This document shows, in pieces, positions 1,094-5,107 of a stretch of 5,107 nt of DNA. Both the position numbers and the translations under genes were made by a program. Under the pieces are notes generated by a model. It saw nothing but the letters and a program-made list of their open reading frames with translations. It was not told the origin of the DNA and ran no database searches. Each line of letters opens with the position of its first letter. Position 1 is the stretch's first letter. The DNA is from Deltaproteobacteria bacterium. GTDB taxonomy: Bacteria > Myxococcota > XYA12-FULL-58-9 > JAUUZB01. Where the stretch lies: contig JAUUZB010000419.1 in the NCBI GenBank assembly GCA_030590185.1, positions 1 through 5,107 on the forward strand, written 5' to 3'.

Positions 1094-1111
1094 GTCGAGT
1101 AGGTCGAGTCA
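1076..1111. repeat. Four tandem 9-bp units (rtcgagnnn) across the convergent gene ends
   Basis: The units start at 1076, 1085, 1094 and 1103. Each contains gtcgag or atcgag followed by a variable triplet (ccg, tag, tag, tca). The second unit provides the TAG stop of the plus-strand propeller gene. The last provides the TGA stop, read as tca on the plus strand, of the minus-strand radical SAM gene. No stem-loop with a T-tract is visible here, so no intrinsic terminator is called. Confidence 0.65.
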
Positions 1112-2233
1112 CCCCAAATCCGAGAAGAACGAGAAGCTCGGGTCGTAGAACTTCTTCTCAAAGACCCGGTTCTTCTCCTGGTGAAGCGTCGCACCGATCC
1201 GGTCGACGATCGGAAACAGCATCTGTTCGTGGGCACAACTGAAGGCGGACATCTCATTGAGCTTGCCGGTGGTGCGGTAGTTGATGCAGCCGCACCAGTT
1301 GACGCAGCGGCCGTTCAGGGCGCACTCGCTGCAACGCTCTGACGGGGCGTTCGACTCGGCGATGACCGCGGCGCGCGCCGGGCGGTCCCAGCCGTCGTTC
1401 ACGTGGCCGATCGCCTTGTCCTTGGTTTTGACGCTCTCGGCGTTGATGAACTGCACGCAGGGGAACAGGGTGCCGTCCGGCGCGATGGAGATTTCGGCCT
1501 CACCTAGTTGGCAGGCGGTGCGCGGGCGATCGCCGCGCACCCGCGAGAAGATGCGATCGTCGACGGAGCCGATGAAGACTTGGAGATCGCGGCGGTGCAG
1601 GTCGATGTAGGTGTCGGCCAGATCGTTGTAGGCGCGCTTGAGACGCTTGAAGCTGGCGTCGTCCCAGGCGGCGGAGCGCTCCACGGTCGGGCGAATCAGG
1701 CGCACCCCGCGCTCGACGAGATAGAGGACCGAGTCACGCAGGTGATCGACGTTCTCCGGCGTGATCACCGAGATGACGATGACGTAGGGGTTGATGCGCA
1801 GGAAGGTCGCGAGGTTGCGCTCGACCACCGCGAAGGACCCTTCATCGTTGGGGAAGCGCCGGTGGGCATCGTGGGCGGCGGCGATGCCGTCGACGCTGAG
1901 GATCAACTCGAAGCGCTGCTCGCGCAAAAAGTCGGCGATCTCCTCGCTGAGGATCGTGGCATTGGTGTTGACCGCGAAGCGTACCGACACACCCGGATGG
2001 GCCGCCGCCTTTTGCTGCGCGTAGGGCACCACGGCGCGGATCATCGGGAAGGCGAGCAGCGGCTCGCCACCGAAGAAGGTCAGGGAGAGGTCGTCGCCGG
2101 TGAGCTGATCGAAGAGAAAGTCGATGGCGGTCCGGGCGGTGTCGGCCGACATGACGTTGTCGCTCTGGGCGCCGGCGTAGCAATAGCTACAGGCCAGATT
2201 GCAGGTCTGGGTGAGGTGGAGGGTGGCGCGCAC
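1109..2233 (-). CDS. Radical SAM/SPASM peptide- or protein-modifying maturase
   Basis: This 374-residue protein starts at GTG 2233, 7 nt after the stop of the lipoprotein gene. Farther upstream the frame only runs as low-complexity shadow through that gene. The radical SAM cluster motif CxxxCxxC is Cys11, Cys15 and Cys18. GGEP follows at 55-58 and an SVDG strand at 113-116, both typical of the SAM-binding barrel. The C-terminal SPASM motif is complete: Cys241-x12-Gly-x4-Cys259, then Cys301-x2-Cys304-x5-Cys310-x3-Cys314-x18-Cys333, plus Cys316, enough for two auxiliary 4Fe-4S clusters. Enzymes of this class cleave SAM reductively and install C-C, C-S or similar links, or oxidise residues, in a peptide or protein substrate in the cytoplasm. 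Length is normal for the class. There is no N-terminal room for a PqqD-like recognition domain. No strong Shine-Dalgarno is visible, so translation is probably coupled to the upstream gene. The likely substrate is the neighbouring lipoprotein; the reaction is unknown. Confidence 0.9.
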   Translation of the reverse strand: MRATLHLTQTCNLACSYCYAGAQSDNVMSADTARTAIDFLFDQLTGDDLSLTFFGGEPLLAFPMIRAVVPYAQQKAAAHPGVSVRFAVNTNATILSEEIADFLREQRFELILSVDGIAAAHDAHRRFPNDEGSFAVVERNLATFLRINPYVIVISVITPENVDHLRDSVLYLVERGVRLIRPTVERSAAWDDASFKRLKRAYNDLADTYIDLHRRDLQVFIGSVDDRIFSRVRGDRPRTACQLGEAEISIAPDGTLFPCVQFINAESVKTKDKAIGHVNDGWDRPARAAVIAESNAPSERCSECALNGRCVNWCGCINYRTTGKLNEMSAFSCAHEQMLFPIVDRIGATLHQEKNRVFEKKFYDPSFSFFSDLG

Positions 2234-2240
2234 CGGAGGA

Positions 2241-2816
2241 CTATATCGCGCCCTGGTCGGCGAGGGAGGTGAAGAATGCCTCGACCTGGACGCGCAGCTC
2301 GTCGAGGGCGCTGGCCTCGTCGCTCCCGTAGCCGTCGCAGTCGTAGGTGGCCTCGTCGAGGATGAGGAAGAACGGGCCGTCCCCCTGGTTCCACTGCCAG
2401 AGCTGCTCCTCGACGGCGAAGTCGAGGCTGTCGCCTTCGGAGTGGGCCTGGTACTCGAAGCCAACGGTGGCGACCTTGTCAAAGCCGTCCGCCTCAAAGC
2501 TCAGCGCGCCCGTGCCGATGGGGTAGTCCTCGTTGATCTGATAGCCGCGCTGCTCGAACGCCTCGAGGAGCACGGCGCGAGCTGTGGTGTCGGTGACCAC
2601 GCAGCTCTCGAGGTACGGGGACGGCGCGTCGCCCATCAACATCGAGCCACCGAAACAACCGGCGGTGGTGAGCGATGCGCCGCTGCCGATCAAGGCAAGG
2701 GCGATGGCGCGCTTGAGCGAGGCTGACATGCCGGCGGCCGGTACCCGGTGGTCACAGAGCTCCGGATAGGCGGGCTCGGGGTAACGGGACAGGGGCTTGC
2801 GGGCGAAATCGGCCAT
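2241..2816 (-). CDS. Predicted lipoprotein, likely substrate or partner of the radical SAM enzyme
   Basis: This 191-residue protein does not match a family I recognise. The start at 2816 is chosen because GAGAGGA lies 7 nt upstream. An ATG at 2843 lacks such a site and falls at the predicted transcription start. Residues 1-29 are a soluble Pro/Tyr-containing extension (RYPEPAYPELCDHR at 11-24). Met30 to Ala52 resembles a lipoprotein signal peptide: basic n-region, hydrophobic stretch 37-49, then TAGC with Cys54 as the lipidation site. The mature part is acidic and has Cys72 and Cys160, a Trp pair at 140 and 142, and an aromatic/Gly-rich stretch around 147-164. It heads an operon with the radical SAM gene, with 7 nt between them, the usual arrangement of a precursor and its maturase. 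Internal Met30 is an alternative start that would give a conventional lipoprotein signal, but no ribosome binding site precedes it. Modification by the neighbour is inferred. Confidence 0.8.
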   Translation of the reverse strand: MADFARKPLSRYPEPAYPELCDHRVPAAGMSASLKRAIALALIGSGASLTTAGCFGGSMLMGDAPSPYLESCVVTDTTARAVLLEAFEQRGYQINEDYPIGTGALSFEADGFDKVATVGFEYQAHSEGDSLDFAVEEQLWQWNQGDGPFFLILDEATYDCDGYGSDEASALDELRVQVEAFFTSLADQGAI

Positions 2817-2942: not shown

Positions 2943-2971
2943 TTGAGCAGCGGGACCGAATGCGCTCTAAT
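2943..2971 (+). promoter_or_regulatory. Candidate sigma-70-type promoter for the STAS-like gene
   Basis: A -35-like TTGAGC (2943-2948, 4 of 6 matches) and a -10-like TCTAAT (2966-2971, 5 of 6 matches) are separated by exactly 17 nt. The predicted start falls at about 2978-2981, on or beside the ATG at 2981. The mRNA would be leaderless or nearly so, which fits the absence of a ribosome binding site. Confidence 0.45.
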
Positions 2972-2977
2972 TCGGTC
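2954..2977. promoter_or_regulatory. Perfect 8-bp inverted repeat overlapping the -10 region (candidate operator)
   Basis: GACCGAAT at 2954-2961 is mirrored by ATTCGGTC at 2970-2977 with an 8-nt centre. The element covers the end of the promoter spacer and the whole proposed -10 hexamer, and it ends 3 nt before ATG 2981. This is where a dimeric repressor could block transcription. If the mRNA started farther upstream, the same sequence could form a hairpin at the start codon. Confidence 0.45.
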
Positions 2978-2980
2978 TGG

Positions 2981-3433
2981 ATGGCGTATCGCTCTTTTCT
3001 TGTCGACGAGCTCTTCTTCGTGCGCTGGATCGCGGGCGTGCCGGACGACCTCGACGTGATCACCGAGGCGGTGGTGGCGCGGCGGGCGGCGCTCGGTCGG
3101 CCGTTGATCTACGTGTCGATTCAAGACGACGCGACCAAGACCCCGGACGAAGCCTTTGCCAAGCGGATGCTCAACCGGGTCCCAGAGTTCTTCGACCAGC
3201 TCGAGCGGATCTATTTGGTGGTCGCGGTGCATGGCTGGGGTGGCAACGTGCAAAAACGCGTGCTGCGGGCCGCCTTGGCCACGGCGCGCACCATCGACCC
3301 GGAGCGCACCGGCAAGGTGAGCTTGATCGAGTCGATGGGGGAGCTGTTCGCGGCGCTCGGGGTCGACCCCCAGCGGCGCGCGGTGTTGGAACGCGAGCTG
3401 GCCGAGCACCGCTTGCTGCCTGACGAAGCGTGA
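2981..3433 (+). CDS. Small alpha/beta protein, possibly STAS-like; function unknown
   Basis: This 150-residue soluble protein has no signal peptide or membrane segment. Predicted elements alternate: strand 6-18, helix 24-38, strand 41-48, helix 55-75, strand 76-84, helix 89-104, strand 112-117, helix 119-126, then a charged helical tail. This order and size resemble STAS / anti-anti-sigma-like domains in which a one-residue switch controls a partner, but I see no certain phosphoacceptor, so the assignment is tentative. The ATG at 2981 is preferred over the in-frame ATG at 2960 because a promoter-like -10 sits at 2966-2971, downstream of 2960, and the residues added by 2960 look unrelated to the fold. 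It is transcribed away from the lipoprotein-radical SAM operon, with a 164-bp spacer between them. No partner kinase, phosphatase or sigma factor lies in the window. Confidence 0.75.
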   Translation: MAYRSFLVDELFFVRWIAGVPDDLDVITEAVVARRAALGRPLIYVSIQDDATKTPDEAFAKRMLNRVPEFFDQLERIYLVVAVHGWGGNVQKRVLRAALATARTIDPERTGKVSLIESMGELFAALGVDPQRRAVLERELAEHRLLPDEA

Positions 3434-3450: not shown

Positions 3451-3605
3451 AGGCCCGACCGGACCGGGCCCGACCCGACCCGACGCGATTCGACCCGACG
3501 CGATTCGACCCGACGCGATTCGACCCGACGCGATTCGACCCGACGCGATTCGACCCGACTAGCCTCGACCGGCTCCGACGCTCGCCTCGCCTCGACTCGA
3601 CCGAT
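3451..3605. repeat. Pentanucleotide-phased repeat array with five perfect 15-bp copies
   Basis: From 3451 to about 3605 the sequence divides in one unbroken phase into 31 pentamers, mostly cgacc, cgacg, cgatt, ctcgc and ctcga. The core is five identical copies of cgacccgacgcgatt (3476-3550) and a partial sixth (3551-3559). Copies decay into related pentamers on both sides. The array fills most of the 195-bp spacer between the STAS-like gene and the membrane sulfatase-fold gene and ends 24 nt before the latter's start codon. The 15-bp unit is three pentamers, or about one and a half helical turns. Because 15 is divisible by 3, the opposite strand stays open in more than one frame; I do not regard those frames as genes. 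Confidence 0.85.
3452..3470 (+). terminator. Weak GC hairpin after the STAS-like gene, no T-tract
   Basis: GGCCCG (3452-3457) and CGGGCC (3465-3470) can pair around a 7-nt loop, 18 nt after the stop codon. No T-run follows and the stem lies in the edge of the repeat array, so it may be a by-product of the repeats rather than a terminator. Confidence 0.2.
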
Positions 3606-3628: not shown

Positions 3629-5107
3629 GTGAAGCAACGCATCCGAGAGTTGGGGCAACGCCTCTACCACGACCGTTGGCGACGACGTCTCCTGATCGCC
3701 TGGTGGTCGCTCGCGATCCTCGAGATCCTGCTGTTCGCCTCTGACTTCCGCCGCTTCTCCACCGGCACCTGGGCCGCCGAGCTGCTCGGCTTGGTCATCA
3801 TCGGACTGGTGCACGCGGCGCTGGCGCCCGAGGATTGGCGAGGCTCCGCCGCCTGGCCCGGTACCGCCGCCACCGTGCTCGGCCTCATCCACCTGGCGGG
3901 CGACCTGTTCACCCTCGCCTTTGCGCCGGCCACGGTGGCGCTGCCGTTGATCGCCATCGGCCTCGCCGCGATCGCCTATCTCGCGGTGCGGCTGCTCGAC
4001 CGCCTGTTGTGGCGTCACATCCCCGCGGTGCTGCTCACCCTCACCGGCCCCCTGTTGCTGCGCATGGCGCTGATCGGCCCCGGCCAGGTGGTGCAGCCGT
4101 TCCTCCCGGCCCCGTCGCCTACCTCCGATGGCCCGCCCCTGGTGGTAATCACCGTCGACACCCTGCGCGCCGACTTTGCCAGCGACATGGAGAGCTGGCG
4201 TTACCTGGCCGAGCGCGGCGCGACCTGGCCCCGCGCCATGTCCGCCTCCTGTTGGACCTGGCCGGCCCTGGTTACTCTGTGGTCCGGCCTCGCCGGCGAG
4301 AAGCATGGCTCCGGTCGCGAGCCGGGCATGAAACAAACCATGCGCGATTGGGGCGCCGACCTGCCGATGCTACCCACCGAGCTTCAGGAGGCGGGCTACG
4401 TCACCGCGGCGCTGACCACCAACCCGGTGGTCGCCTTGATGCCCCTGTCACGCCACTTCCAAACCTGGCGCCACGGCAGCGTGGTCGGGCCGCCCATGAC
4501 CTTGCTGGGTTTCCCCGGACCCTCCTCGGACGCCGGCGACGCCCGCGACGTGGTGGACGCCGCCATCGCCTGGATCGAAGACGCACCGGACAACGGTTAT
4601 CTCCTCTGGGTGCACCTCTCCGAGCCTCACCTTCCCTACCGCCACTCCACCGGCGAGATCTGGGATTACAACCTGCTGCGCAACGTTCGCTCGGGCGATT
4701 GGTTCATGGGAGCCGAGGAACGAGCCGCGGTCCTTCGCGCCCATCGCGAGGAGGTCGCCTACGCCGACCGCCACGTCCTGCGCCTGCTGCGCGTTTTGGA
4801 GAGCCGTGGTATCTTCGAGCGCGGCGCGGTCCTGTTCACCTCCGACCACGGCGAGGAGTTCTGGGAGCACGGCGGGTTCGAGCACGGGCACTCCCACCAC
4901 GGCGAGGTGGTCGATGTGCCGCTGGCGCTGGTGGCCGCCGGGGTCGCGCCGGGTGAGCGCGCCGGCCTCGCCTCGTTACAAGACATCGCCCCGACGCTTC
5001 GCGCCATCGCTGGGATGACGGCCGAGGGCTTGGATCTGCGCGAGCCGCTCCCCGCGGATCGGGTGGCCCGCGCCTGGGGCAACGCCTACTTCCGGCCGAT
5101 GCACAGC
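3629..5107 (+). CDS. Membrane-anchored sulfatase/alkaline-phosphatase-fold protein with Thr nucleophile (3' end outside window)
   Basis: The frame runs from GTG 3629 to the right edge with no stop (493 codons visible). An in-frame TAG at 3605-3607 limits the start; no strong ribosome binding site is seen. Residues 1-20 are basic, followed by about five hydrophobic helices (21-37, 49-66, 80-98, 101-123, 132-150). From 170 a sulfatase-type domain begins: VDTLRAD at 176-182 (metal ligand Asp177), CWTWPA at 208-213, HLSEPHLPY at 329-337, SDHGEEF at 405-411 (Asp406 and His407 metal ligands) and HG at 419-420. Thr210 aligns with the catalytic residue and there is no CxPxR, so formylglycine maturation is not expected. 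Five helices plus an outer domain with catalytic Thr is the architecture of LtaS- and EptA-type phosphotransferases. It may act on lipid or polysaccharide head groups at the outer face of the membrane. Substrate and reaction (transferase, phosphodiesterase or sulfatase) cannot be read from sequence. Confidence 0.88.
   Translation, partial: MKQRIRELGQRLYHDRWRRRLLIAWWSLAILEILLFASDFRRFSTGTWAAELLGLVIIGLVHAALAPEDWRGSAAWPGTAATVLGLIHLAGDLFTLAFAPATVALPLIAIGLAAIAYLAVRLLDRLLWRHIPAVLLTLTGPLLLRMALIGPGQVVQPFLPAPSPTSDGPPLVVITVDTLRADFASDMESWRYLAERGATWPRAMSASCWTWPALVTLWSGLAGEKHGSGREPGMKQTMRDWGADLPMLPTELQEAGYVTAALTTNPVVALMPLSRHFQTWRHGSVVGPPMTLLGFPGPSSDAGDARDVVDAAIAWIEDAPDNGYLLWVHLSEPHLPYRHSTGEIWDYNLLRNVRSGDWFMGAEERAAVLRAHREEVAYADRHVLRLLRVLESRGIFERGAVLFTSDHGEEFWEHGGFEHGHSHHGEVVDVPLALVAAGVAPGERAGLASLQDIAPTLRAIAGMTAEGLDLREPLPADRVARAWGNAYFRPMHS

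Follow-up and report, generated by a model that had tools for sequence, protein, structure and literature searches.

Introduction

In systems that make ribosomally synthesized and post-translationally modified peptides (RiPPs), a precursor with an N-terminal leader is encoded next to its modifying enzyme. A comparable arrangement is found on contig JAUUZB010000419.1 (assembly GCA_030590185.1) of a Deltaproteobacteria bacterium, where the gene of a predicted lipoprotein lies just ahead of that of a radical S-adenosylmethionine (SAM)/SPASM enzyme, and where a leader preceding the signal peptide may be recognized by this enzyme. The 5,107-nt stretch analysed here (the window) carries both genes on its minus strand. 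We propose that the pair probably consists of an enzyme and its substrate, forming a leader-dependent radical SAM system that would modify an exported protein before its secretion. The pairing, defined by a leader containing Tyr-Pro (the YP leader), is real, recurrent and apparently unnamed: no description of it appeared in listings of the open-access literature, subscription journals being outside the scope of that search.

Among solved structures, the best relative of the enzyme is the CteB thioether maturase (5wgg; E 2.3e-31 over residues 4-336), a 453-aa chain in which about 100 residues, absent from the window enzyme, precede the matched part. CteB acts on SCIFF peptides. The nearest named family is that of the PapB ranthipeptide maturases (NF047865), which likewise combine a radical SAM core with a SPASM region and have a leader-dependent substrate encoded beside their gene. 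The differences are several: (i), the enzyme reaches 226.7 bits against the PapB model, whose cut-off is 340; (ii), the substrate would be an exported protein, whereas that of PapB is a small Cys-rich peptide; (iii), about one third of the leader-bearing proteins encoded beside relatives of the enzyme (hereafter the partners) lack any Cys beyond the lipobox; (iv), the window enzyme has conserved extra C-terminal helices and, (v), the repeated Cys-x3-Asp/Glu of PapB substrates was not found, the window lipoprotein having a single CX3D (residues 72-76). PapB joins Cys to Asp or Glu (PMC9413430).

Another rSAM/lipoprotein pair, already named in NCBIfam (TIGR04134), likewise has its lipoprotein gene immediately ahead of a radical SAM gene and shares a G-x-P segment shortly past the lipobox (ALYGTPSADF in the TIGR04134-type lipoprotein of locus L154). 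Unlike the partners, the L154 lipoprotein has no YP leader; TIGR04134 matched none of 56 partners, the window's included, at E<=0.01, and we rejected the known pair on these grounds. TIGR04133, which we take to be the enzyme model of that pair, was not among the best 25 of 77 NCBIfam models for our enzyme. At L154:1468-2984 the gene of a genuine TIGR04134 lipoprotein overlaps a radical SAM gene; the genome concerned, G398, also has the YP-leader pair L028, and the two types of system are thus found side by side in a single genome.

The MNIO RiPP-lipoprotein hybrids (DAG-RiPPs, DybA/DybH) and the bufferins resemble the proposed system in associating a cytosolic metalloenzyme with a signal-bearing precursor that is in some cases lipidated (PMC12636315, PMC12452194). 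Their enzyme superfamily is different, however, and DybH reads a C-terminal motif, in contrast to the leader ahead of the signal that is proposed here; no MNIO model was among the matches listed for the five window open reading frames (ORFs) scanned. According to PMC12452194, few bacterial RiPP precursors have signal peptides, and MNIO substrates, among them the bufferins, are the exception; the preprint PMC12636315 reports MNIO-made RiPP-lipoprotein hybrids and expects lipidated RiPPs mostly from short leader-independent pathways.

Results

Layout of the gene pair

The lipoprotein ORF runs from an ATG at 2816 to a TAG at 2241 (191 aa), and the enzyme ORF from a GTG at 2233 to a stop at 1109 (374 aa). 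The intergenic gap (2234-2240) is 7 nt long, in agreement with the original prediction, made from the DNA letters, of a small lipoprotein followed at that distance by a complete radical SAM/SPASM enzyme. The features of the pair are:

2241..2816, minus strand: predicted lipoprotein and proposed substrate, 191 aa, homologous to enzyme-adjacent partners
2763..2798, minus strand: leader motif ahead of the signal, residues 7-18, KPLSRYPEPAYP, pattern Y..P.YP
2658..2723, minus strand: hydrophobic signal segment, residues 32-53, from the sequence; helix at 32-44 in the AlphaFold2 (AF2) model
2655..2666, minus strand: lipobox-like T-A-G-C54, from the sequence
2616..2639, minus strand: candidate modification motif LMGDAPSP, residues 60-67, fitting the motif enriched in other partners
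2589..2603, minus strand: Cys72-x3-Asp76, alternative PapB-like cross-link site, from the sequence; pattern as given in PMC9413430
2244..2606, minus strand: folded domain, residues 71-191
1109..2233, minus strand: radical SAM/SPASM enzyme, 374 aa, GTG start
2180..2203, minus strand: CX3CX2C radical SAM cluster motif, residues 11-18
1235..1513, minus strand: SPASM region, Cys 241, 259, 301, 304, 310, 314, 316 and 333, invariant in 15 aligned relatives
1112..1234, minus strand: conserved C-terminal extension, residues 334-374, past the PapB profile

GC content at codon positions 1/2/3 (0.66/0.46/0.90 in the lipoprotein gene and 0.61/0.44/0.89 in the enzyme gene) resembles that of the three other window genes checked, and a GAGAGGA, seen by eye, stands just 5' of the lipoprotein ATG. 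Alternative in-frame ATGs occur at 2843 and at residue 30; the latter is disfavoured because the leader is conserved. The hydrophobic segment and the T-A-G-C54 were read from the sequence alone, and the lipobox has an unusual residue at position -3, where T is not canonical. Scans of the window for tRNA and Rfam families (gathering cut-offs) gave no matches.

A leader ahead of the signal peptide recurs beside relatives of the enzyme

The features most widely shared by the partners, which come from several bacterial phyla, are the leader ahead of the signal and, in many, a Gly-centred motif after it. Partner leaders are basic and rich in Pro and Tyr, and they precede a hydrophobic signal-like segment (MKARPVERYETPAYPTR, MKIEPIRTYQMPEYPTA, MLERKKVTGYKVPKYPA), with a consensus of approximately [KR]Px[RK]YxxPxYP. 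We scored as paired any locus with an ORF within 150 nt of the enzyme gene that encodes YP and then a hydrophobic segment. This strict test was passed by 38 of 96 loci from which near-copies had been removed (30 with the partner upstream and 8 downstream; 37 without L151, which inspection showed to be false); at random positions drawn from these loci the rate was 1.9% (174 of 9264). The neighbour co-occurrence suggested as a check in the original prediction thus recurs across loci. Other radical SAM genes, at 27 loci on viral contigs, gave no pass, the random rate there being lower as well (8/3536). These figures replace an earlier greedy-ORF count, which missed obvious partners in GC-rich loci: it had found an adjacent signal-bearing ORF at 45 of the 96 loci, 20 of them with YP, compared with YP in 19 of 244 non-adjacent ones. 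Of the 62 partners collected, 16 have a stricter pattern, Y..P.YP; among the 4139 other ORFs of loci L001-L121 it occurs twice, in L010 and L023, both times in a partner. The window leader fits it exactly: Y12-P-E-P15-A-Y17-P18 (YPEPAYP).

Many of the loci that fail the strict test were recovered by inspection, owing to variant leaders (Y-A, Y-I, Y-N, F-P), truncated contigs or wider spacing. Partners were added in this way at L009 (Y-N), L010, L011, L014, L023, L031, L041, L131, L139 and L140. In eleven Clostridia loci the leader reads Y-A or Y-I instead (MKIEPRHDYKKPLYI...GTAC), a group of loci of the phylum Myxococcota has an F-P variant (PEFPTR in L168), and L012 and L027 are contig ends that retain the partner C-terminus only; some loci, such as L158, end close to the enzyme. 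Partner genes occur in tandem at L002, L013, L022, L024, L025, L031, L032, L036 and L037, and together with the repeated motifs described below they look like substrates.

A clade of archaeal, Chlorobi, Bacteroidetes and Chloroflexi enzyme relatives (L039, L042, L046, L030, L056, L062 and L064) has instead a small signal-less partner with a shared GG-x-x-x-[PSA]-H-x-H-like segment (GG...PHLHYKGE-like), which may represent a cytosolic form of the system. At L031 (5002-5505), a YP-leader partner contains a LysM domain (Pfam E 5.7e-17, one member), so that the leader is joined to unrelated domains. The partners of L022, L036, L037 and L052 give the impression of being FliL-like.

The window lipoprotein and its relatives

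Judged by homology, the window lipoprotein is a member of the family of enzyme-adjacent partners. On its own it matches no Pfam family and no NCBIfam model near cut-off (best E 0.74), and a single-sequence search gave no homologue at E<=1 among 462 candidates; its early description as unfamiliar was apt. A profile built from the partners of other loci, the window protein being excluded, nevertheless scores its mature part at E=1.5e-5, whereas the best of 1000 shuffles reached 0.14. The L144 partner, chosen by eye and compared as a single sequence, aligns to it with 38.9 bits (E=1e-8; 17/43 identical), and similarity to the partners extends to the last residues (LR.QV..F...L..QG.I; alignment A3). 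Given this homology of both leader and domain to enzyme-adjacent partners, it is very unlikely that the two window genes are unrelated and adjacent by accident, a view to which the lack of a single-sequence homologue might have lent itself.

Apart from the window protein itself, a profile search retrieved 119 relatives, and Pfam domains were absent from all of them; where names were readable they were 'hypothetical protein', save for P0199 ('adenylate kinase family enzyme'). YP falls within the first 45 residues of 106 of the 107 full-length relatives (>=240 aa), a figure that is not independent since the profile included the leader, and the one full-length relative without YP looks N-terminally truncated. 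Searches of 56 partners against NCBIfam and Pfam gave only scattered matches (LysM, Tat signal and others, in one or two members each), and nine further partners searched against NCBIfam had no covering family model. The folded domain presents candidate nuclease-like residues, D110 ... E121-x-Q123, in which the catalytic Lys of the PD-(D/E)XK site is not kept: the third position is Gln123 in the window protein and V, I, P, M or A in relatives, some of which, such as L008, have also lost the Glu. Foldseek found no match in the PDB at E<=0.001.

Partner genes in genomes with the enzyme

The association was examined from the opposite side with partner-profile searches in two classes, the Myxococcota class also searched for the enzyme (306 genomes) and that of G398 (Bacteroidetes; 295 genomes), which gave matches in 8 genomes and 1 genome, respectively. 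In G337, G451 and G492 the matches are weak (E 2e-6 to 7e-6) and lie in loci with neither a leader ORF nor the enzyme; G337 has an enzyme elsewhere in its genome. The remaining six genomes contain 13 confident partner genes (E<=1.1e-7), of which 9 are clustered with the enzyme and 4 (L174, L182, L184 and L185) are unlinked, and all six carry the enzyme. A routine absence of the radical SAM gene beside homologues of the lipoprotein, which the original prediction had regarded as fatal to its proposal, was thus not found in these class-wide scans. Of the unlinked genes, those of L182 and L184 have the leader; their genomes, G002 and G403, have the enzyme elsewhere, and they are candidate in-trans substrates, since modification of proteins encoded away from the enzyme would have to occur in trans.

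The enzyme

The enzyme has the Cys set C11-x3-C15-x2-C18 followed by C241, C259, C301, C304, C310, C314 and C333 (and also C316), with the radical SAM core beginning at residue 2. Pfam recognizes Radical_SAM (48.8 bits; cut-off 29.5), while SPASM stays under its cut-off (15.8 versus 21.5). The seven-Cys SPASM pattern is complete and invariant across 15 aligned relatives (alignment A1), one of which, P0006, is truncated ahead of the first Cys motif. As both Cys sets are complete, the three cluster sites predicted from the letters are correct. PapB was the top NCBIfam model, the runner-up scoring 166.4 bits, and it was matched by all 15 members of A1 (best E 3.9e-74). Beyond the PapB profile, the AF2 model (pLDDT 89.7) has a conserved helical C-terminal extension, residues 334-374, which could be a possible dock for the leader.

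A protein search that scored the 7995 candidates sharing most words found 1736 relatives at E<=0.001 and five full-length ones at 46-54%, and a genome scan found at least 80 loci at 27-39% identity. Of 377 genomes of the phylum Myxococcota, 23 contain a relative at E<=1e-50; in one class inside that phylum, 20 of 317 genomes have one at E<=1e-70. Searches of plasmids (234 records with a match, all below 60% identity) and of viral contigs (41 loci) returned distant radical SAM genes only. In a quick tree, where 53 of 109 loci were labelled as having a leader partner (the labels predating the counting of L023 and of the Y-A/F-P variants), such loci are scattered over the ingroup, and the trait is clustered on it, with 20 changes against 39.6 in shuffles and none of 500 shuffles as low. 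The window enzyme groups with P0004-P0008, its five nearest relatives (SH-aLRT 99); deep forks are weak. One relative, L037/L125, has an in-frame TGA in its genome copy and adjoins three tandem YP-leader genes.

A sulfatase-fold gene (Pfam Sulfatase 61.6 bits) 0.8 kb past the lipoprotein start and a match of the enzyme to the anaerobic sulfatase maturase model (93.8 bits) raise another possibility, that the enzyme serves as a maturase for this gene at 3629. That seems extremely unlikely: the model cut-off is 349.45 bits, the sulfatase-like gene is on the opposite strand, and no [CS]-x-P-[SAT]-R occurs in the portion of its product that the window covers. Sulfatase maturation was rejected on the score and the missing motif.

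The lipoprotein could also assist the enzyme as a chaperone, anchor or redox partner while the enzyme acts elsewhere, as might be thought from the several enzyme relatives that have no such neighbour. We consider this improbable, because the partners are exported, highly variable past the leader, arranged in tandem and endowed with repeated motifs, and no other neighbour family is as widespread (group 1 partners at 12 of 73 loci, the next family at 6, in a count whose ORF picking was poor in GC-rich loci). The window lipoprotein is, in our assessment, very likely the substrate of the enzyme.

Candidate modification sites

Many partners have, after the anchor, a motif of the form hydrophobic-x-G-[DEKMG]-[IVMAP] (or LxG[DE][VIMA]), as in LAGDVSVV, LMGDVPNIE, LEGDVPSPA and LAGDVEQPD. 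It was written by eye because de novo EM discovery gave only proline runs. Among 20 short partners, on which the pattern had been chosen, there are 28 sites in 15 proteins, compared with 5.5 in shuffles (maximum 13 in 500 shuffles). Applied unchanged to 11 Clostridia partners found later (12 loci examined, L060 yielding none; L076/L077 are near-copies), it gave 26 sites in 10 proteins against a shuffled mean of 2.8 (maximum 10 in 1000 shuffles). L073 has seven copies, and repeats also occur in L043 and L166. The window copy, L60-M-G-D-A-P-S-P67, begins six residues past Cys54.

A PapB-like thioether maturase, linking Cys72 to Asp76 as PapB does in PapA, is an alternative reading. Its arguments are the top-ranking PapB model, the exact CX3D formed by Cys72-V-V-T-Asp76, with PapB tolerant of varied spacing and sequence (PMC9413430), and a near-invariant Cys in the same region of group 1 partners (0.98 of 107). 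We nonetheless find it rather unlikely: the score is under the PapB cut-off, a single CX3D is unremarkable in a protein with two mature Cys, and Cys is absent past the signal in the domain relative L001 and past the lipobox in 20 of 60 partners, which means that a thioether cannot be universal in the family.

The sites named in the original prediction fared unequally. Trp140, Trp142 and Cys160 are not conserved in A3; Cys72 is still a candidate, as it forms with Asp76 a Cys-x3-Asp of the kind that PapB cross-links. Within the Tyr/Phe/Gly-rich stretch 147-164, only Tyr158-Asp159 is conserved; it lines up with a Y-D that is near-invariant in the family (VFYDP) and may be a modification site or a structural feature.

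Discussion

The recurrent pairing, the shared leader, the homology among partners, the complete cluster ligands and the motif enrichment in other partners are computed results. We propose the following scheme, which seems more likely than not. The cytosolic radical SAM/SPASM enzyme would bind the lipoprotein precursor through leader residues 7-18, and recognition of the leader by the enzyme is, to our mind, quite likely. The short linker that joins the lipid anchor to the folded domain would next be modified, still ahead of export, by 5'-deoxyadenosyl radical chemistry involving the auxiliary clusters of the SPASM region, the likeliest target within the linker being the Gly-centred L60-M-G-D-A-P-S-P67; that this motif is the modification site in the window lipoprotein is a tentative assignment. 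The protein would then be exported, leader and signal being removed together at the lipobox and Cys54 lipidated, and the modified linker would be displayed with the globular domain (71-191, a possibly nuclease-like fold that lacks a conserved catalytic Lys).

Several observations weigh against this scheme. More than half of the loci (58 of 96) fail the strict test, and no leader partner was seen on inspection of L133, L156, L159, L005/L165 (36-38% identity) and others; two of the four unlinked partner genes, L174 and L185, have no leader ORF. The single motif copy of the window protein is weak and by itself not significant, since 23% of shuffles have one anywhere and 2.7% near the start, and the 29 group 1/2 partners, its domain relatives, have no motif above chance (10 sites, 11.7 expected). 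Group 1 has F.HG.G.G..GC at the same place before the folded domain, each residue in 96-100% of 107.

The recurring pairing, the partner homology and the lack of a covering family model support the earlier suggestion of a possibly undescribed system of maturase and exported substrate. It is conceivable, if short of an even chance, that the pathway is widespread, a tag ahead of the signal marking exported proteins (lipoproteins and other signal-bearing proteins whose domains are unrelated) so that a radical SAM enzyme modifies a Gly-centred linker motif in them before they are secreted; the chemistry would be undescribed, because about one third of the partners examined lack Cys past the lipobox and no aromatic residue is fixed in the motif. 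If true, one radical SAM family would modify envelope proteins, and not secreted natural products alone, in bacteria as far apart as Myxococcota, gut Clostridia and Akkermansia. The system would also be a leader-dependent counterpart of the MNIO RiPP-lipoprotein hybrids (PMC12636315). Leader and motif yield directly testable predictions.

Other features of the window

On the plus strand, the gene at 2-1093 codes for the C-terminal portion of a protein that is long and probably exported; it shows weak ELWxxDGT-like repeats (E 0.09), and a 9-bp repeat at 169-225 gives rise to its GPSGPSGGSGPSGP stretch. Another 9-bp repeat, GGTCGAGTA, lies in 4.9 copies at 1066-1109, where this gene and the enzyme gene converge. 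Also on the plus strand, 2960-3433 is a 157-aa ORF with good codon-position GC, no Pfam match and a best NCBIfam E of 0.13. It is separated from the sulfatase-like gene by a perfect 15-bp tandem repeat of 5.6 copies (CGACCCGACGCGATT, 3476-3559). The sulfatase-like gene itself (3629-5107, plus strand) is cut by the window end and encodes a membrane-anchored sulfatase-fold protein with SCWTWPALVTLWSG at the expected nucleophile loop, where a Thr might be the nucleophile.

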